NCBI GenBank assembly: GCA_006384855.1
Contig: VCJN01000224.1
Coordinates: 124,001 to 188,000, forward strand
DNA length: 64,000 bases
DNA from: Tetraselmis striata
Lineage: Eukaryota > Chlorophyta > Chlorodendrophyceae > Chlorodendrales > Chlorodendraceae
Reading direction: 5' to 3'
Position numbers and translations under genes: made by a program. The notes under the pieces were generated by a model, which saw only the letters and a list, made by a program, of their open reading frames with translations, ran no database searches and was not told the origin of the DNA. Positions 1 to 48,785 of this stretch are shown here, in pieces. Position 1 is the stretch's first letter, and each line of letters starts with the position of its first letter.

Positions 1-3000
1 GTGACGCAACCCACGCTTGCGATGGCCAGCGGGGAGCCGCAGCCGGCGTCCACCAGCGGGGGCGCCGCGTCGGCCGCTGCCAGGCGCTCCGCCTCCGCGG
101 CCTCGTAGCTGGCCACCAGCGCCTCCAGCGCCTTGCGCTTGGCGCGCTCCTTCTTGAGGGCGTCCTTGCTCTGCGGCCCGTAGAGGGAGTTCATTCCGCA
201 TGGGTGTCAGCAGACGGAGGGATGCCAAAGCACGTCTCCATCACGATCGCATCGCGACGAGACACGCCAGAGCCAGTGCCAGCAACGGGGTCGTCACACC
301 GGCCCGCCCGCGCTCACCTTTGTCAGGCGCCGCTTGAGCGCAAGTGCGTTGCCCGCGGTGCGCTGCAGCTGCGCCTCCATCATCTTGGACTGCCGCAGCG
401 CGCCGCGCGCCACGGCCCGCGCGCGCTGCCCGCCGGTGGACACCTGCCCGGCCGGGGCGGGCGTGGTGCCGCACGCGGCGTCCACCGAGTCCACCAGGTC
501 TTGCACCTCCCGGGAGGGCGTGAAGAGCGCAGCGGGCTCCAGGGGCTCCGACCCTGGTGAGCAGGGCGTCCCGCTTTGCGGCAGCTGCGGACACACCCAG
601 GGACACAGCCAGGCCGTCAGCAGAGGCGGCGTGTGTATGGGGACACGGAGTACTCCGTGAGGGGATGGCAGCCTCAGGCCGGGGGGCTGCCCCTACCTGG
701 AGCAGGCGGCCCGCCACTTGCGAAAGGTCCACCACAGGCAGCGGCGACTGCGCCTGGTGGGCCGCGGGCGTGTTGTTGGGCAGGCCGGCCGCAAAGCGCA
801 CCTGCGGGGCCGGCGGTTCGCCACATCAGCGACACCCCTGCCCCTGACCGTTCAGGTATCCATCCAAACCCATGCTGGACATCACGCGGAGATGGCCGCT
901 ACATCGCATCACAACCTAGACTTCACATGCCAGTAAAGCTTCCATGTGATGGGCGGGGGGCACTTCACGTCGCTGTGTGTGATAGCCCCCCCCCCCCCCC
1001 CCCCCCCCCTTTGGTAAAAATAAAACCCGGCAATGAGTCATATGGATTGCACCCAGGTACCATAGCTCAGCTTAGTCAGAGGCAAAAGACAGGCTGCATT
1101 TGCATCGACAATGTCAGGGATGACCGCCGCCCTGTGGGCAGGGTCGCGCAGGGCAAGTGCCACGCCGGCGCTCACCCGCTTCTTGGCGGTGGAGGAGGGG
1201 GTCGTGAGGAGCTGGGAAGGCCTGTACGCCCATGCGCGCAGCGCCGGCGTGGAGTTGGCCACATCCATCGGCGGCGCCGGCGAGCTCGTCGCCCTGTCCC
1301 TGCGCGGCCTGCTCGCTGCTGCCGCGGGGGTGGCGTCCACGGCCACACCCTCTGGTGTGCCGGCCGGGACCGGGGCCGGGGCCGGGGCTGGCGTCGGCGG
1401 CTTACGGGCCGCCGCCGCCGCCGCCGCAGCTGCGTTGGCAGCCGCCGCGGCCATCTTGGCCCCGCGGGAGTTCCGCGTGCGCTGAATGGACGAGGCGCTA
1501 GGGGGCGGCCGCAGCGCCACGTTGAATGGGCGTTGCCCCTGGCCCCGGGGGCCAGGCGTGTAGAAGTGCGGCGCCTCCACGCCTCCTGGCGCCGGCCTCT
1601 TGAGCGCAGAGCGCAACTTTCCGTGGCTGCGGGTCACCCCGTGGCCGGGCGCGGTCTTCACCTCTGGCGCGGGCGTGGCTGGTGAGCCATTCGCCGCCGT
1701 TGCACCAGGCGCGCCCGCGGGACTAGGCGCCGCCTCCGGAGCAGCCTGTGCAGCGCAATCTCAGTTAATAGGCAGAGGTGGGGCTCGTATCGCGGCGAGG
1801 GCAACTGTCGCTAGAAAGGGGGCGCCGGTCGGTGGGCGGGTGGGAAACATCAGGCGCGGACCTGCTGGCTGCCTGCTGGCGAATCCTCCGCCACCTCCGG
1901 CTCCCCATCCGCCGCCATCAGCGGGTGGTCGACCGCCTGCGATGGCGGCTGGGCCTTCCGCGCGCTGAGGGAGAACAGTGGCAACTCGTCCTCGCTGGCG
2001 GGGCTGCTGAACTGCCCGCCAGCCTTCTCGGTCGCTGCGGGCACGACGCCGAGCAGGGCAGTCGCCAGTCAGCCGCCGGAGATGTTGGTGGCACTCAGCC
2101 CGCCACCTGCGCATAGTCACGCTAAGGGCGCACCTGACGTAGCGCCTGCAGGCACCGTGTTGGCGTCCACCATGCTGAGCGGCCTCCGCTGCGGCTGCAA
2201 CTCTGACCTACGGACCGCAGCGTATCCATCGAGGGAAATCAGGTCTCAGGCACCACTTCGCATTCCTACCACCTTATCAGGTAGCGGGCCGTCTGGCGTC
2301 ATGCGGTGGAACTGTGCCATTTTGGTAAGAAAGAAAACATTCTTGGTGTCTTTGTCTGTGAGGGGGGTTGGGGGTTCGGGGAGCGCACCGAGCGGGGTCT
2401 GCAGGAGATGGCTTAAACACAAGCTTCCTGACTTTATCGTCCATCAAGGGGAGCTGCACAGGGCGAGACAGAACGGCCATCAGAACAACCGCGCGCGCCC
2501 GTTGCTCGCAGGCCTGCAAGAGATAAGGGAGTCCCCACCTCCAGCACATCCTTGTTTGACAAGGGACGGCTCTCTCCCTCCGGGATCTCGGCCCCGTTCA
2601 GCCTCATGAGCACAGTCCCGACCTGCTGAATCACCACCTGAAAATGCCGGGGACACCTATCAGCTCACAGCGCCCAGCAGGAGCATGGTGGGGGAATCGG
2701 GTCCCTGGCGGATGGCGCACCTGATCATCCTTGACTCGCACAACGCCATGAACCTTCGACACGAGGCGATTTATGATGCGGATGTGTGCGTCACGGTTCC
2801 TGCGATCCCGGTGAGGCAAAGAGCAGGGGCGCCAACCACCCGTGAGGGAGAGCATACGACTGGGCTGCAGAGGGTCACACAGCCCGTGCACATTTCAGCA
2901 TACCTCCCAATTGTTGTCCTCTCGCCCGAAATGGGGTGTTCGTACTTGACGCCATCCTCCCTCTGCTCAATGAACACGCCGTGCTTTTGCGCTGGCTGCG

Positions 3001-3007
3001 CGTCCAT
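1..3007 (-). CDS. FHA-domain protein with Ki-67/Repo-Man-like PP1-docking motif (3' end cut by window edge)
   Basis: Read on the minus strand, exons appear at 3007-2904, 2799-2721, 2637-2539, about 2453 onward, 2034-1862, 1745-1176, 801-697, about 544-318 and 170 to beyond base 1. The ATG at 3007 opens a first exon ending in TTIGR. Exons 1-3 splice in phase to an FHA domain at about residues 10-90: TTIGRNRD, then HIRIINRLVSKVHG with the conserved S and H of the phosphothreonine-binding loop, then LNG and LSNKDVLE. The exon ending at 1176 finishes STAKKR and the next starts VRF, giving KKRVRFAAGLPNNTP: an RVxF-type PP1 docking site directly followed by LPxNTP. The middle is Ala/Pro-rich and low complexity; the last two exons are charged and probably helical. 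From family knowledge, FHA plus RVxF/LPxNTP occurs in Ki-67. The protein's role here is inferred. The 2453 exon's 3' end and the stop codon are unresolved. A C24 tract (986-1009) lies in the intron that splits KKR from VRF. Confidence 0.72.
986..1009. repeat. C24 homopolymer in intron of FHA gene
   Basis: An uninterrupted run of C on the plus strand (G on the sense strand) lies inside the intron between 1175 and 802. It is one of about 27 such tracts in the window. Confidence 0.95.
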
Positions 3008-3167: not shown

Positions 3168-3192
3168 CCCCCCCCCCCCCCCCCCCCCCCCC
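3168..3192. repeat. C25 homopolymer upstream of FHA gene start
   Basis: An uninterrupted C run followed by a short CG alternation, 160 bases upstream of the ATG at 3007. It would lie in the 5' UTR or promoter on the minus strand. Confidence 0.95.
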
Positions 3193-3728: not shown

Positions 3729-3760
3729 CCCCCCCCCCCCCCCCCCCGCCCCCCCCCCCC
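3729..3760. repeat. Interrupted poly-C tract (32 bases)
   Basis: C run with a single G at 3748, in intergenic DNA. Confidence 0.95.
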
Positions 3761-17565: not shown

Positions 17566-20500
17566 ATGCAGCACAACGACCCGCGCTACTACACGGGGGC
17601 CGGGAATCCCCTCTCCGACCCGGCCTCCGTTTACGCCGCCCGCCAGTACCCGGGTGAGCAGGGCGGGGGCAGCGGCGGCTTCCCATATCTGCACACCCCT
17701 GCTGGGGATCCAGGCGAGCGCATGGACTACGCATCGCCTATGGTGGGCATACCGCGCATGGCACAGCATGGCAGCAATGTCGGTGTCGGTGGCGGTGGGG
17801 GGACGTTTTACAGTGGGCGGCCGGCGCAGGCTGGTGCGGCAGGGGGCGGCTATCCTGCTGGCGCCAGCGAGGGAATGGAGGGCGGAATGGCCGCCTCCAT
17901 GGATGTTGGCACGCGGGCCACCCCACCCAACACGGCGCGCCTCGCCCCACCGTCCGGTCGTAGCGGGAACGGCCTCCTCCCACCAGCGCAGCAGACGCCC
18001 CCGCGGCCGGCGGCGGCGGCGGCGTCCGTGTCGTGGCCCATGCGCGGGGCGGAGGATCTGGCGACGCGCAGCAGCACGTCCTGCCCGTCTGCGGAGGCGA
18101 CGGATGGAGTGCCGGGAGGGAGGCACTACCGGCTGCTGTGTGAGGCGCAAAAGGTGTTGGCGGCAGAGGAGCGGCCGCGCAAGGCACAGCTTCAAGCGGT
18201 AGGGGCTCTTGTCAAGCGCTTCCGCAGCCGGCTGGCAGCGAGCCGGCCTTCTGAGTCTGCCCCGGAGCAGCGTCATGGAGCCGCCCCCCGGCCCCCGCCA
18301 GCTATGTGAGCCAACAGGCGCAGCAGCTGCAGGCGCAGATCGACGCGTACCGGCGCCTTGTCCGGGATCTGCCGGTAAGCCGTGGAGGGCTGCAGACCGC
18401 GCTGGGTGACGACGCGCCTGGTGAGTGCCCATGGAGCTGCCCTCTGATGTCGAAGCCCCTCCTCCCTCCCCAACCGCGCTCATTTCCCATCTGCCTTGCA
18501 GCTCGTCGGCTTTTATCTGGGTGTGCTGGGCGCCGAGTCACTGCACCCCCGGATGTGTGCGCAGACGAGGCGACCGTTGCAAGGGTGGCGGAGATGCAGG
18601 CGCAAAGCCGCTCGCCGCGCAGCCTGATCGCCATGCGAATGGCTGCGGAGGATCGGGTCGCTGCAGCGCGGGAGCAGCGTGCCGCTGAGCTGCGAGAGAT
18701 CTGCCAGCTGGACATCATCTCAAGCGTGAGAGCCCCCCCCCCCCCCCCCCCCCCCCCCCTTTCCCCTTGTACACACACCCACAGCTGGTCAGGACCGGAA
18801 ACGGATGTACATCTCAGACTCCCTAGTACTGCTTTCGGTGGCGCTGACGTGCCTCCCCTCTGTTCCCAGGAGGAGAGGCTGAAGGCCATCATTGAGCTAA
18901 AGGGCTTGAAGCTGGCAGAGTTGCAGCGCCAGGTGGGCCAGGGCCACGGCCTCCGTATTGCCCGCACCCGTTGCTCCTCCCCAAAACGTCTCTCTGGCTG
19001 CTGGGACGTGCTGAGGTGGGTGGCTGGGCTGTGTGCGGCAGATGCGCTGGGAGGTGGCCCTCGAGAGGCGATTGCTGGAGCAGTGCTCTGCGGGTGCGCC
19101 CCTGTCCCCCCCCTTTCTCTATGCATTTGTCACATGACCCGCCGGGGAGATTTGGAAGCGGCTGCGGGTGGAAACTCACACGCGATGCTGGCTTTTCAGA
19201 TGCGCTGCTGGAGTGGCGGCACTGGCGCGTGCCCGAGATGTCCGAGCCCGTGTTTGAGCTGCCGGTCGTGCGGCGCAAGGTGCTGCTGGTGGAGCCCAAC
19301 CCGCCGCCGCCGCGCCGGCCGCTGACAGAGCAGGAAGAGCACCTGCTGGCCGCGCGCCGAAAGGTGGAGGCCCTGCGCAAGCAGGTCCAGAAGGAGGAGG
19401 ACTACCGTTCCAGCGTGCAGCAGGGCAAGCTGGTGCGGCGCCGGCCCCCTAGCCCCATCAGCCCCTGTCAGTCCGCTGCCCTGCCACCCATCAGCCATCA
19501 GGTTTTGCTGTCAGGATCCATCTGCGGTTGTGTGGTTGCTGTTGCTCATCGTGTTTTTTTCTGATGACCACTGCGCGCGGGCTCTGTTGACGTATATTCT
19601 CTGCCAGTTTCCCTCGCCACCGTGTCCCTCGAGAGCCTGAGCGGTCATGTGGTGCGTTGCGCATCTCCCGCTGACCACTTCTCCATCTGGCCACTTCTCG
19701 CCACGCAGGCTGCGCTAAGAGAGCGCCGGAACTTTCTGAACGAGATTACCGACTATGGGCGCGAATGGAAGGCCGCCCTGTCCGCTGCCACGCGGGACCG
19801 GTCCAGGAGGCTCAACGGGGTGACTGCGTGGCACAACCGGTGCGGCCGCCCGGCTGCGATCCGTGCAGCCAGCGGGGTTGTGGGGGCATCAGCGCGCCGC
19901 TCGCACATGCTCACTTGTTCTCATCTGCGGCATCAATCCGCATTGGGCAGCTGTTTCTGACAACATTCCCTGCGTACCTGTGGCGAAGGGAGAAGCGGCG
20001 GGTGGCCAAGCAGGGCGAGGCGCGCATCAATGCGCTGAAGAACCAAAACTTCGAGGAGTACCTGCGACTGGCGACGGAGACCAAGAACTCGCGGCTGACG
20101 ACCCTGCTGGAGAAGACGGACAACATCATCCTGGACCTGAGCGTCAAGGTGCAGGAGCAGCGCAGCGATGTGGACCAGGTGGCGGTGCTGGACAAGGAGG
20201 AGCTCCAGAGCCTTTTTGCCAGCATGGACGAGAAGGATGGCGAGGGCTACCAGCGCATGATGAAGAGCCAGGAGAAGTACATGAACCTCGTGCACCGCGA
20301 GAAGGAGGAGGTGCGGCAGCCGACTGCGCTGCAGTCGGGCAGCCTGCGGAACTACCAGATCGACGGCCTGCGCTTCTTTGTGAGCCTCTACAACAACAGC
20401 ATGAACGGCATTCTCGCGGACGAGATGGGCCTGGGGAAGACTATCCAGGCGCGTCCTCCACCCACTTGGCACTGCATGCCCCCCTCCCCCTCCCCCTCCC

Positions 20501-23500
20501 TTCACCCAGACCTTCCAGTTAACACGTGGCGGCCCCAAATACTTCGCAATCCAGGCATGCATGCCAGCGCCATGCCTAGATGTTGCGCTTTTCCACACAT
20601 CATGCAGCCTTTTGCCGGTGCCTGCACTGCCAATCGGTGGCTCCATGTCCAAGTTATATTGGGATCATCCCCCCCTGGCACAAATGCAGGCTGTGCCTCC
20701 ATTCTGACATTACCACCCCCTCTCTTTTGCGGGACGTTTCCCCGCGCCAATAGACGGTGGCATTTGTGACCTACCTCGCGGATCTGAAGGGCTGCCACGG
20801 GCCGCACCTCATCCTGGCGCCCAAGGCCGTCCTGCCCAATTGGCGCAACGAGTTCAAGAAGTGGTCGCCAGGGCTGGAGGTGTGCTTTTACGACGGAAGC
20901 ACCGACGACCGCCGCGAGATCCGCGATGCTCAGCTGTCGGGGGGCACCTTCAACGTCATCCTGACGCATTATGATCTCGTCATGCGGGACAAGTCGTACC
21001 TGCGCAAGTACGACTACGAGACGCTCATCGTTGATGAGGGCCACAGGTGCCCCCAGCCCTACCTGACCCCTCATGTTGGCGGCAGCAATTGCAAGTTGGT
21101 CCCTGCTGTGCATGCAGTGATGACTCAGGGTGCGCTAGGCCTCACAGGTGACTGGGCTGCTGCTGGTGCGATTGCAGGCTGAAGAATTCTCGGAGCAAAC
21201 TGAGCGACATCCTGCGCGAGCACTACAACTTCAAGCATCGCTTCCTCCTCACGGGTACCCCCATTCAGAACAGCATTGACGAGCTCTGGGCGCTGCTCAA
21301 CTTCGTCCTGCCCAAGGTCTTCAACAGCAGCGGCTCGTTCGACGACTGGTTTGCGGCTCCGTTCCAAGGCAGCGCCGAGGACCTCAGCCAGCAGCTGAAC
21401 GAGGAGGAGAACCTGCTGATCATCCACCGCCTGCACCAGGTCATCCGCCCGTTCATGCTGCGCCGCACCAAGAGCGAGGTGGAGAAGGAGCTGCCCAGCA
21501 AGATTGAGCAGATCGTCAAGTGCGACATGAGTGCCTGGCAGCGGCTGCAGTACACACAGGTTACCAACAAGAGCAAGGTGGAAATGGGCCGCGGGCGCAT
21601 GCGGCTGCAGAACCAGGCACCCCCCCCCCCCCCCCCCCCTCGAGCGGATGTGTCGTGAACCTGGCGCACTTAAAACGGCCTTCTCAAATCAGCACCGTTG
21701 GCACCCTGCAGGCCATGCAGCTGCGCAAAGCCTGCAACCACCCGTACCTCTTCCTCAACGAGTACGAGCCAATGGACCCCGAGGAGCTGGTGACCGCCAG
21801 CGGCAAGATGATGATCCTGGACAATGTGCTGCCCAAGCTGAAGGCCACCGGCCACCGCGTGCTGCTCTTCAGCCAGATGACACGCGTGCTTGACATCCTG
21901 CAGGTCCTTGCCCCCCCCCCCCCCTCCCTTTCTCCCCTTCCTTCCCCGGCAGCTACGCGCGCATCAAGCATCATCGGTGACTGCACTGCCTCCGTCCCTA
22001 GTGCGCGTCTTGATGGCCCTCTGAGCACTCCGCTGCGGCGCGTGGAACGCAACCATGCCTGAACGCCGCAGGACTACTTTGAGATGCGCGGCTACAAGTA
22101 CATGCGCCTGGACGGCACCACCAACACGGAGGACCGCAGCGACATGCTGACCAAGTTCAACGAGCCCGACTCGGACTACTTCATCTTCATGCTCTCCACG
22201 CGAGCGGGCGGGCTGGGCCTCAACCTGCAGACGGCCGACACCGTCATCATGTTTGACTCTGACTGGGTGAGAGCTGCCGTAGCCCAGCAGCCCCGATGAT
22301 GACCCACTATTGGATACATTCAGAGTTCGGTGGCAACGCACCCGGCCCTCAGTTTGAGTACGCGCGTACCGGGGGGTCGTCCCGGCGAATAGGTGTCACT
22401 ACTCGGTAATTATCACACCTGGGTGATTATCGGACAATCCCAGCCCCTACACCGCCGACCGTAGCTATATTTCCTGGTGATAACCATCTGGTTATTACCA
22501 ACACATGCGTTGCCTCCTACCGCTTAGAACGCTACTGTAAGGCTGTCATATGTTTATGGTCATATGTTCCTGTGAATTTACGCGTACGCAACGCGTATAT
22601 ACTGGCAAGGATTGTAGACATAGTGTATGAATCAATATTATGTGCAGAGAGGAATGAGCGCATGCTCCAGAGTACCGCGTCTAAGCAGTTTACCATGATG
22701 GAACTTCAGCAATAACAATAGCAAGAAAGGATATGTAATAGCGGAATAGAATACAAACAAAAAACGATAGAAGGGTGGCAAATTAAACACGGCCAGGCAC
22801 CGCCGGTTTAAAATTAATTGCCAAGTATGCGCTAATTACCCCTAATTGCGAAAATAGCTTTCCAGCGAACACTGGAAAGGGCAGGTGGGGTGCACTCTTT
22901 GTCGCTCGTATGATTGGGGGTGTGCTGTCTCGCGCCGCCCGGATGTGACTTTTGACTGCTTACAAACCTTGCGTCAGCTCATGCGACGATGTTCCCAGGA
23001 AGAGCGCTCAAACCAAACCCTAAAATACCCTTTAAAACCCCTTTAAACCCCTAAAAACCCTGGGCGCGCTCGAAGCCGCTCAGCTGAATGCGGCTGGGGC
23101 GGCGTGGAAACACTTCGACCCGGGAGGGGGGGTCCTGCCCTTCGCACGTCTGCGATGACATGTGCTGTCATCCGGACGCCCAGCGCATGATGCGAACCCG
23201 CACGCAGACTGACCTGCAAACACCTCGCCTGGCGCGGCAGAACCCGCAAGCAGATCAGCAGGCGGAGGACCGCGCGCACCGCATCGGGCAGAAGAAGCAG
23301 GTGCTGGTGCTCATCTTTGTGGTGAGCGGCACCATCGAGGAGGTCATCCAGCGGCGGGCGCGCGAGAAGCGCGACATCGACGCCAAGGTCATCCAGGCGG
23401 GCATGTTCAACGACAAGTCCACGCACGCGGACCGCCACGAGCTGCTGGAGCAGATCATGAAGCAGGACGACCTCAACTTGGGCACGGACGTGCACACCGT

Positions 23501-26500
23501 CGAGGAGCTCAACGAGCTGCTTGCTCGCACGGAGGACGAGATCAAGGTTTTAGCGCGGCCGCGGCTTGGTTGCGGGAGGGGAGGGGCAGCGCCCGCGGGT
23601 CCGCCCGGGCCTGTGACTGCGGGGCAGCTGGGCGGCTGAGCAAGTGGTTTGTGCGCTGGGCAGGTGTTTGAGGAGATGGACGCGGCGTTGGTGGAGTCCG
23701 GCAGCCGGCTCGAGCTGCTGGGCGAGGACGGCATCCCGGACTGGGTGCGCGGGGAGGCGGAGGCGGAGGAGGCGGAGGAGGAGGAGGTGGAGGCGGAGGA
23801 GGAGGCCGAAGACGGCAGCCGGAGCCGCCGCCGCCGGCCGCGCAAGGACGTCGTGTACGACGAGACGCTGTCGGAGGAGCAGTTCTGCCGGCTGGTGGAC
23901 GCCGGCGCCTCGCATGTGGGTGCCGCCGGGGTCCCGAGCCCAGGGCGCTGTCATGCCTGGTGCCGGGGATCCTGTCTTGGGCCTGCGGTCAGCGCCGTCC
24001 GGCCGTTTGTGGGCGCCATGCTGGCTGGCTGGCTGGCTGGCTGGGGACACCTGCCTGCGAATGCCGTTCTTCGCAGCCCCTGAGTCGGGCCGCCTGGCTG
24101 CTGCATTCCCCGTGTCGGGCCGGGGCTGCAGGACGAGCTGGAGAGGATCCGGCGTGCCAAGAGGGACCGCAGCCGGCTGCGCGCGGAGGAGCGGGCGGCC
24201 AAGCGCGCCAAGCTGGAGGATGGCGGGCAGGCGGACAGGGGCGGCCGGCGAGGGGGATGGCTCCGAGGAGGAGGAGGAGGGCGCCGAGCTGCCGCCCGGG
24301 GAGTTCACGATAGGCAACGCGGAGGTGGCGCCCAAGCGCGGCCGCGGCCGGCCGAGAGGAGGAGGAGGAGGCCGGGGAGGCCGGGTGCGCCGCCGCCCCA
24401 GGCCCTCGCACAGCAGCAGGTTACCGTGTCCCGGCCGGCATGGGCCACCCTCCCGGCTGAGCTTGCGGGTGCCGTGTAATCGGCATCGCAGGGACGCGGG
24501 CGCGGGCGCGGGCGTGGGCGCGGGCGGCCACCCCTGGCTGCCTTGGAGAGCCTGGAGGCGGAGCAGCCGGAGGGGAGCGCAGAGGAGCCCCTGGCTGCCT
24601 TGGAGAGCCTGGAGGCGGAGCAGCCGGAGGGGAGCGCAGAGGAGCATGGCGGGGATGCGCCCGAGCCGGCGGCCATGACGTCGGACACCGAGCCCGGCGG
24701 CGGCGACCAGGGAGAGAAGAGGAAGCGGGAGGGGGCCGCGGCTGCGGGGGAGGCCGCGCCCGGTGAGGCGGCGACCCCACCGGCCAAGCGCGGGCGCCGG
24801 CACGCGAGCATGCGCTCGGTGGTGCTGAGCCCCACGGCCAGGCCGGTCCCGCCTGAGGCCGATGGCGCGGAGGGCGAGGGCGGCGGTGACGGCGAGCGCA
24901 GACTGACCCGGCGCAGGAGCCGGGGGCTCGCTGAGCGGCCGGGCGGCGAGGAGGCTGCCGCTGGGGCGGAGCACGAGGAGCCGGGCCAGGAGCAGGGCGC
25001 CGGAGGCCGGGCTACCCGGCGCACCAGGGGCCCGGCCACGCCTGGGCGAACCCTGCGCACACGCCATGCTGCCCGCGGCAACCAGGTGCGGGGCCTCGGG
25101 CTGCACCCCTCGGTGATCCCCACACCCACACACGGGTGCCGACGCGGTGACAAGAACAATCCAAATGAGAGCCTGCCACGAGGCCTGCCAGGGGTCCAAC
25201 GAGACTGAAACTATCGAGGAACGATTGCGAACGTTCTTCTGGGTCGCAAAAGCCCAATGCCAGGCTTTTAATAATAAGAGTTTGCATAGGCGCGCCAGCA
25301 CCTGTAGCGTGGTAACAAGGAGACTCGTGTATATTTAGCAACAGGACCGGAAAAGCGACCAGGAGATACTCCATATATGCTGTTGTGTATATATAGATGT
25401 ACGCATCTGTCCATCTCTGCATACATACATATGTAAATTTATATACATATATAATCCCCATTACGTAATTTATGTAATGTAATATATCTCTGTATATCCA
25501 TACATAGAAAATTGTGTATATAAGAACCGGAAAGCGACCAGGAGATACTCCATATATGCTGTTGTGCATTATATATGTATGTATGCATATGCATATGTAT
25601 ATGTATGTATATGTGTAGATGCATAGATACGTATGTAATTATATATATACATATATAATTCCAACCCACCCCCTTACGCAGGGACCGCCCGCTCAGGGCT
25701 TGCCGCCGTGAGCATGTGTGAGTCGTTGCTGATGAGTGGTGCGCCTGGCGCCGCGGCAGGTTCTTGAGTCGGATGGCGATGAGCGCGGCAACACTCGTGC
25801 GGGCTCCCGCGAGCCCAAATTGGATGCGGAGCCAGGGCCACCCCCCGAGCCTCCGGCACCGGAAGAGGCACCGTCGCCGCGGAAGGCCGGGCCGGCCGCG
25901 TCGCATGCCGACGCCAAGGAGGCGGACGCGGCCCCGGAGGGCGCCCTGCCGGCCACCACGAGCCGCGCGAGCACGAGGGCCACCCGGCGGAGCGCCCCGC
26001 CGTCCCGCGGCTCGGCAGCGTCCGGCGAGGCTCAGCCAGCGCCCCCGCTGCCTGCCTCCAGAGGCGAGGCGGCCGGTGCCGAGGCCGCGGCTGAGCAGGG
26101 CGAGGCGCCGTCCGAGACAACTGCGGCAGCGGCCTCCTCCCCGCTGCCGGGCGACATCCCTGCAGAAAGCGGCCGGGATCACGCCGGCGAGGTGCTCAAG
26201 GATGGCAAACCGCCATTGGCGGCCGACCCGCCGGCACCTGCCGACCCGAGCGCAGCTGGGCCAGAGGGGGCGGCTGCGCCCTCGCCGGCGGATGCACCAG
26301 AGCAGACCGCGAGCCCCATGCTCGCCGAGGCAGCAGCCCCCGGCGCCGCTGAGCCCGCCGATGCCCGCAAAGGCGGGGCGGACCCGCAGCCGCCGGCTGA
26401 GAAGGGGAGCGGTGCTCCACCCAGGGCCGGTGTGCCTTCGCCGCCGCACGCGGAGGCGGCGGGGGCCGTGGACGGAGACGCGCCGCTTCCGGCTCGCGAC

Positions 26501-47411: not shown

Positions 47412-48785
47412 TGTGTCCTCCCCGTCTTCACCCCCACCCCGAGGCGCCCGGTTTAGCACTACTGTACTCTACCGCGTACCCGGACACGACTCGGACTCCG
47501 ACGGCAAGTGGGACTCAGATGACGAAGAGTTGTGCGCATTCGTTCTGCCGCTAGGGTTTGTGGAACTGCTACAAGCGATGAATTGCTTGAAGTGGTGCCG
47601 CGCTTCCTCACCATAGCGACAACGACGGCGTGTCCGCTACACATGGCAACCGCGGTCTGCGTCACGTCGATAGGAAAGCAATTGAGAAGCGGACCCAGGA
47701 GCGCAGAGACGCGCAACGCAGAATTCGTCGGTATGGGGACAAGAGTTTCCGCTGCCGCTTCAAGGTGACAAAGCAACGCTTTTTTCAGCTAGTCGACGAG
47801 CTCGCGCCGCTCATCGACATCAGCGACGCAGGAAAGCTACAGACGGTGAGGTCTTCAGGCAGCTGGGTCCCAGTGGAGCTGCGATTAGCGGCCACTTTGA
47901 GGTGGCTAGCTGGTGCGAATTTCCAGGACTCAGAGGATAGGTTTGGCCTTGGAACGACCACCCTTTACGAGGGGTGTATATGGCCAGTCATAGATGCTCT
48001 TGACGAGCTCTATCACAAGCCATTCAAGCCTTACGACACCGACCTCTTGAAGACTATGGCGGAGGAGATGCAGGCACGGAGTGGGTGGGTAATGAGTGGA
48101 TGCTTTGGCGCAGTGGATGGAATGGCAGTGCGCATCGCTAAACCCACCAAAGCAGCTGTGAAGAACGTCAAGCATTTCAGGAACAGGAAGGGGTTCTTCA
48201 GCATCAACTTGCAGGCGGTTGCGGACGCACGCATGAGGATTGTCTGCTTCGACTTGTCCGCCCAAGGTAGCACCCATGACAGCCTTGCTTGGAAGATGTG
48301 TTCCCTGGGACATGCGTTGGACAAAAGGCCTTTACCAGAAGGGTACTGGCTGGCTGGAGATGAAGCGTACGTCTGTAGCGATTGCCTGGTTACACCCTGG
48401 GGATCGAAATATCGCGCAGGCTAGGAAAGACAAGGCCAAGGACAACTTCCATTTTTATCAAAGTAGATGCAGGATAAATGTAGAGTGTGCATTTGGCCTG
48501 CTGGTCGCTAGATTTGGTATCTTGCGCCGTCCTATGTGTGGCAACATAAAGAACATAACAAAGGCTGTCGCTGCATGCATCCATTTACACAACATGGCTA
48601 TAGAGGACAACCTACCCCTAGGCTTAGCTTTGACCAGCGAGAGTAGGATTGGTGACTGCTTCCGGCCTATGCGGCAGGATAAGGTCACAGAATCCGAACG
48701 TGGCCTCATAAACATCCCAAAATCAGCCAAAGGGTGTTGCTCACCGATCATGTCGCTCGCAATCATTCCTCCTGCATGTATATGA
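47412..48785 (+). CDS. Harbinger DDE transposase (one frame break)
   Basis: The main frame, from about 47612 to 48424, contains FKVTKQRFFQLVDELAPLI, ELRLAATLRWLAGANFQDSE and GCFGAVDGMAVRI. The first catalytic Asp is the codon at 48116. GDEAYVCSDCLVTPW carries the second Asp at 48359. After the CLVTPW codons the sequence slips one base and continues NIAQARKDKAKDNFHFYQSR and INVECAFGLLVARFGILRRP, where the Glu at 48483 completes DDE. The C terminus stops at 48785. An upstream short exon with DSDSDGKWDSDDEEL (about 47413-47550) may supply the N terminus through an intron ending at the AG before 47616; that start is uncertain. These motifs are diagnostic of the DDE_Tnp_4/HARBI1-like family, which cuts and reinserts the element at TWA sites. 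Confidence 0.85.

Follow-up and report, generated by a model that had tools for sequence, protein, structure and literature searches.

The window, a 64-kb stretch of Tetraselmis striata DNA (C175:124001-188000, in an assembly of 224 Mb), holds at its start a minus-strand gene whose predicted product combines an N-terminal FHA domain with a putative PP1-docking motif of the RVxF type. The reading preferred here, with moderate confidence, is that the product may be a chromatin-bound FHA/PP1 scaffold that resembles Ki-67 in its working through convergence. Support at the level of sequence comes from the gene model, the FHA domain, the motif, the enrichment in [ST]P sites, the repeats, the AT hook of exon 11 and the docking residues of the host PP1. 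PP1 binding, control by kinases, localisation on chromatin and a mitotic role are what we infer.

Gene model and FHA domain

The ATG of the gene lies at window position 3007 (minus strand), and the model of 10 exons runs from there to position 1. The gene had been described as confined to positions 1 to 3007, and was found to extend past the window start into L010 on the same contig (C175). Its features are as follows.

1..3007, minus: in-window part of the gene; GT..AG at 9 of 9 introns, 884-codon open frame, GC3 0.85
3007-2904, 2799-2721, 2637-2539, 2453-2389, 2207-2134, minus: exons 1 to 5
2034-1862, 1745-1176, 801-697, 584-318, minus: exons 6 to 9
1..170, minus: opening part of exon 10, which runs on into L010; DAGCGSP at window 50-30 is a second repeat unit
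2451..2917, minus: FHA domain, residues 31-95, over exons 1 to 4; Pfam PF00498, E 2.6e-7
1176..1184, minus: KKR (386-388), the basic residues that open the RVxF motif, at the end of exon 7
802..1175, minus: intron 7 (predicted), 374 bases, between R388 and V389, splitting the RVxF motif; donor GTGAGC, acceptor CCCCGCAG
793..801, minus: VRF (389-391), remainder of the putative RVxF PP1 dock, at the start of exon 8
766..783, minus: LPNNTP (395-400), resembling the core of the Ki-67/Repo-Man KiR-SLiM (consensus from the available part of PMC5005033)
459..482, minus: DAACGTTP (458-465), the unit that opens a short Cys-[ST]P repeat array; the array reaches about residue 719, outside the window
L010:2579-2406, outside the window: exon 11, AT hook
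L010:2291-2060, outside the window: exon 12, weaker AT hook

The GC content of the 884-codon frame by codon position was 0.72 (GC1), 0.63 (GC2) and 0.85 (GC3). Intron 7 has the donor CGG/GTGAGC and the acceptor CCCCGCAG/GTG. The open frame of exon 8 reaches upstream to position 825 at most, the single AG acceptor there is the one at 802, and retention of the intron would lead to a stop after 45 codons. The join of KKR to VRFAAGLPNNTP is predicted because a good donor is paired with the sole possible acceptor just before VRF. Splicing in phase recovered all the FHA strings reported in the initial annotation (TTIGRNRD, HIRIINRLVSKVHG, LNG and LSNKDVLE), and its placing of the FHA domain and RVxF/LPxNTP in one gene was borne out in the predicted model by the Pfam FHA match and by the join across 1175-802. 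Searches of the assembly with the DNA of exon 8, the DNA of 1862-3007 and residues 1-568 revealed no second copy of the gene; the 10 matches of residues 1-568 were all on C175. Long C tracts, possible sites of assembly error, were seen at window 986-1009, 3168-3192 and 3729-3760 (the last interrupted by one G); they fall inside an intron and ahead of the gene.

The FHA domain scored 31.4 bits against a Pfam cut-off of 20.7. FHA domains in general read phosphothreonine through Gly-Arg, Ser-x-x-His and Asn-Gly, and these are kept as G34-R35, S49-x-x-H52 and N75-G76. The domain was compared with nine hand-entered reference FHA domains by z-scores against shuffles. With these references, the highest values were obtained for Rad53 (8.8) and CHFR (8.0), followed by Ki-67 (6.5), CHK2 (5.6), MDC1 (4.3), RNF8 (1.6), DDL (0.7), KAPP (0.6) and NIPP1 (0.1). 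Among the families to which the initial annotation had looked, Ki-67 stands below Rad53 and CHFR, MDC1 lower again, and NIPP1 at chance, with 220 of 500 shuffles as good. Of 10 PDB sequences with E no higher than 1, the top matches were FHA chains of a GGDEF protein and of Slr1951 (0.04), followed by CHFR (0.68), Ki-67 (0.78 and 0.9) and Rad53 (0.88); the values for these last three are noise, because an unrelated SSL7 chain was equally good (0.89). By its sequence the domain is a sound FHA domain, yet its assignment to Ki-67 is unsupported. The Pfam family Yop-YscD_cpl, which has an FHA-like fold, matched the same stretch below its cut-off (0.0017). Among other sub-cut-off matches in residues 1-568, CENP-Q (0.057) was rejected as a match to helical, basic sequence, and DEAD_assoc scored 0.2. 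Some other FHA genes in the assembly occur in contig pairs with equal (C2643/C1708, C43/C403) or nearly equal (C174/C420) scores, which look as if two haplotypes had been kept; the present FHA/RVxF locus is single.

RVxF and LPNNTP motifs and the host PP1

At the motif level, KKRVRF (386-391) is the sole RVxF of the 884-residue chain. When the disordered part (residues 121-884) was shuffled 20,000 times, a strict RVxF was found in 4.7%, the dibasic form [KR][KR][VI]xF in 0.5%, LPxN[TS]P in 0.2%, and RVxF together with an LPxN[TS]P no more than 15 residues away at a frequency of 5e-5. The pair is unusual because of this joint frequency. The motif was chosen post hoc and the chain is rich in proline and threonine, so that the look-elsewhere effect is real. 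Judged from the residues, the arrangement goes beyond a loose resemblance to the motifs, and RVRF is likely a PP1 dock. The 4.7% for the strict motif counts against the scaffold reading, as do the absence of phi-phi after RVxF, the lack of any orthologue among the proteins searched, the lone full CDK site among the [ST]P sites and the position of the AT-hook tail outside the window and past two frame discontinuities.

In PDB entries, Ki-67 has RVSF, 12 residues, LPPNTP (the crystal construct having M for T) and LKRG, and Repo-Man has RVTF, 12 residues, LPANTP and LRKG; the alga has RVRF, 3 residues, LPNNTP and AAHQ. The KiR-SLiM is described in the available part of PMC5005033 as FDxxLP(P/A)N(T/S)PL(R/K)(R/K)Gx(T/S)P, lying past phi-phi, in a beta-hairpin on PP1, and the Swiss-Prot search reported there retrieved Ki-67 and Repo-Man only. 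Beyond the LPxNTP core, phi-phi, FD and L(R/K)(R/K)G with its basic tail are all absent from the algal segment. Pfam PP1_bind (PF15276) was not among the matches of this segment (0 families at E up to 10), against 1.1e-14 for the Ki-67 control; genome-wide it gave 5 matches, none of them over the cut-off and none at the FHA gene locus. A profile made of the two human segments matched in two weak, separate pieces, which at least 29 of 2000 shuffles equalled or exceeded (among 1700 of the 2001 sequences listed). The 43-residue PP1 segment matched 4 PDB sequences (E 0.82 to 1.6), none of which was a PP1 regulator. Since [ST]P sites are many and a second NTP (596-598) is located inside the repeat array, LPNNTP may simply belong among these sites.

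RSALKRP at residues 243-249 (window 1593-1613, minus), non-canonical with A instead of I, resembles the SILK-type second PP1 site. Residues of the Ki-67 interface such as those considered here are expected in PP1 generally. The PP1 gene of the alga, at C951, has kept R20, R74, E77, Y78 and Q294 and has Y for F81, that is, 5 of the 6 compared residues, and a compact KiR-like dock is therefore possible. The available part of PMC5005033 names all six in connection with the binding of Ki-67/Repo-Man and with the choice of isoform.

[ST]P sites, AT hooks and comparison with known proteins

Shuffles of the 884 residues had 17.2 [ST]P sites on average; the protein has 39, a number that 0 of 2000 shuffles reached. 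The complete CDK consensus [ST]Px[KR] is seen at just one of the 39, T445, so that phosphorylation by a proline-directed kinase is more probable than a proven CDK target. C-x(1-3)-[ST]P occurs 8 times in residues 451-730 (shuffle mean 0.54; 0 of 5000 shuffles reached 8), the same region holds 11 of the 12 cysteines, and the repeat units include DAACGTTPAP, DAGCAMTPAP and DAACGQTPLP. Pfam found no Ki-67 repeats in residues 1-568 or in residues 569-884, the latter matching 0 families, and no kinase, RING or BRCT domain in residues 1-884. The AT hook of exon 11 scored 18.3 bits, above the Pfam cut-off of 17.4, and that of exon 12, which has a basic end, scored 14.8 bits, under it. This tail likely belongs to the FHA protein, as judged from the assembly, where the frame is broken twice by one base, each time in a C-run of the same gene's 3' part (L010:2900-3060 and L010:2240-2291), between it and the 884-codon frame. 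The discontinuities were left uncorrected; they are likely sequencing errors and less probably the mark of a decaying 3' end. The dense [ST]P array with its short repeats and the AT-hook exons outside the window are Ki-67-like features additional to those of the initial annotation. The starts of exons 11 and 12 are near-identical, the AT hook and part of the preceding intron included; this is a tandem duplication and raises the number of AT hooks.

Ki-67, whose architecture is used here as given in the available parts of PMC8354752 and PMC8786303, has in common with the algal protein an N-terminal FHA domain, a central RVxF followed by LPxNTP, [ST]P repeats, a C-terminal part that binds DNA or chromatin (predicted in the alga), and a mostly disordered chain. 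The two differ in the spacer between RVxF and LPxNTP (12 residues in Ki-67, 3 in the alga), in the phi-phi, FD, L(R/K)(R/K)G and PP1_bind that Ki-67 has and the alga lacks, in the repeats (the Ki-67 repeat against a short one with Cys) and probably in the C-terminus, where Ki-67 has an LR domain and the likely algal tail carries AT hooks (exons 11 and 12, one above the cut-off); the algal FHA domain is also not specifically that of Ki-67. Repo-Man (CDCA2), the relation of which to Ki-67 is taken from the available part of PMC4032110, shares RVxF with LPxNTP and chromatin-linked PP1 targeting, on the algal side as a motif only, and its KiR-SLiM differences from the alga are identical to those for Ki-67. 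NIPP1 (PPP1R8) likewise joins FHA and RVxF in one nuclear protein, the nuclear location of the algal one being predicted, and the likeness of the two FHA domains is at chance. To our knowledge, NIPP1 is short and has neither [ST]P repeats nor AT hooks, and Repo-Man has no FHA domain. The algal FHA domain is nearer to those of CHFR and Rad53 than to that of Ki-67, and less near to that of MDC1; the algal protein differs from all three in having the RVxF motif and, in residues 1-884, no RING, kinase or BRCT match. MDC1 combines an FHA domain with a long disordered repeat part, as the algal protein does.

A functional analogy to Ki-67, with FHA domain, PP1 dock and [ST]P array on chromatin, is plausible from these predicted features. 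The protein would be a large nuclear scaffold, mostly disordered, in which the FHA domain would bind pThr partners and the single KKRVRF would dock the PP1 catalytic subunit. The [ST]P sites, with those of the short DAACGxTPxP repeat among them, would be substrates of CDK or of some other proline-directed kinase, and the sites flanking the dock (T380, T399 in LPNNTP, and S407) may switch docking. Anchorage on DNA would fall to the basic C-terminal exons with their AT hooks. PP1 would in this way be brought to FHA-bound phosphoproteins on chromatin, as proposed for Ki-67, by a route arrived at independently.

Alternative readings, relatives and other features of the window

The protein could instead be no PP1 regulator at all, with RVRF present by chance, and act in a checkpoint or on chromatin as an FHA factor resembling CHFR, Rad53 or MDC1, or as an AT-hook regulator, its [ST]P sites serving as phospho-switches. 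This is possible, though unlikely. The highest FHA z-scores, those of Rad53 and CHFR among the hand-entered references, and the 4.7% of shuffles with a strict RVxF are consistent with it, but the dibasic form KKRVRF turns up in fewer shuffles (0.5%) and has a second PP1-like motif next to it (5e-5 for the two jointly), and residues 1-884 have no kinase, RING or BRCT match. A different departure from the scaffold reading concerns the dock itself, which may be a compact, convergent Ki-67-like dock of the KiR type in which RVRF and LPNNTP both contact PP1, with LPNNTP in the Ki-67/Repo-Man pocket and the chain following another path. The matching LPxNTP core, the joint frequency in shuffles and the 5 of 6 interface residues retained by the algal PP1 point towards such a dock; the spacer of 3 rather than 12, the missing phi-phi, FD and L(R/K)(R/K)G, the unmatched PP1_bind, the weak and separate scoring of the pieces (at least 29 of 2000 shuffles as good or better, among 1700 of 2001 sequences listed) and the further NTP within the repeat array make it doubtful. 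Equally doubtful is the larger proposal that would build on it, an independent green-algal, Ki-67-like chromatin 'brush' with a pThr-reading FHA domain at its free end, a compact RVxF-LPxNTP dock in the Ki-67/Repo-Man pocket, a phospho-repeat array and a DNA anchor. If true, the 'brush' would be a mitotic-exit phosphatase scaffold outside animals. If an alga joins FHA, RVxF with LPxNTP and phospho-repeats in one chromatin protein, this solution would be older than thought or have been reached twice, and with either outcome the needs of a chromosome-bound PP1 scaffold could be tested in a unicellular model. A faulty gene model or a decaying gene, with exons 7 and 8 unjoined in the cell or the 3' part broken, is very improbable: the splice joins are predicted from sequence rather than taken from transcripts, poly-C tracts are close by and two one-base discontinuities occur in C-runs downstream, but 884 codons are open, all nine introns are GT..AG, the GC3 bias falls in the chosen phase and one donor/acceptor pair fits intron 7.

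Relatives were sought with three queries against about 5.8 billion proteins. The 880-residue model gave 7994 scored candidates, none at E up to 0.001; residues 1-120 gave 95, none at E up to 1; and residues 360-560 gave 7991, none at E up to 10. This null is weak evidence of absence because of the length rule of the search and the presumably low number of spliced algal proteins in the set. Among the titles listed in literature searches of open-licence papers, none named a comparable protein from algae or plants. A hand-entered NIPP1 sequence, compared with the genome, left the FHA gene locus unmatched and gave weak matches at C1978, C174, C2195 and C420. According to the available part of PMC10214084, the PP1 regulators examined, other than I-2 and PNUTS, are restricted to Metazoa, Ki67 and RepoMan included. 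The initial annotation had proposed an algal mitotic PP1 scaffold that arose either from ancient kinship with Ki-67 or by convergence. The sequence bears out the combination of an FHA domain and a good PP1-docking motif, and the convergent alternative may hold; the ancient kinship is unsupported, given the unmatched PP1_bind, the spacer of 3 instead of 12 and an FHA domain that compares as well or better with Rad53 and CHFR. A true, very old Ki-67 orthologue would explain why FHA, PP1 motif, [ST]P repeats and DNA-binding end follow one another as they do in Ki-67, but is extremely unlikely with PP1_bind unmet, the FHA domain nearest to proteins other than Ki-67, no homologue in between found by the three protein searches, and the reported restriction of Ki67/RepoMan to Metazoa.

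Other frames were also seen in the window. A plus-strand frame at 24480-25205 contains a perfect repeat of an 18-residue protein stretch and an Arg-Gly run; Pfam gave nothing for it at E up to 0.01. Exon frames at 18255-20766 on the plus strand, with QLQ below the cut-off (3.3e-4) and an SNF2-related domain (4e-11), probably represent one gene for an SNF2-type chromatin remodeller. The plus-strand frame at 47591-48421 encodes a DDE_Tnp_4 transposase (1.8e-15), presumably of the kind known from Harbinger-type elements.
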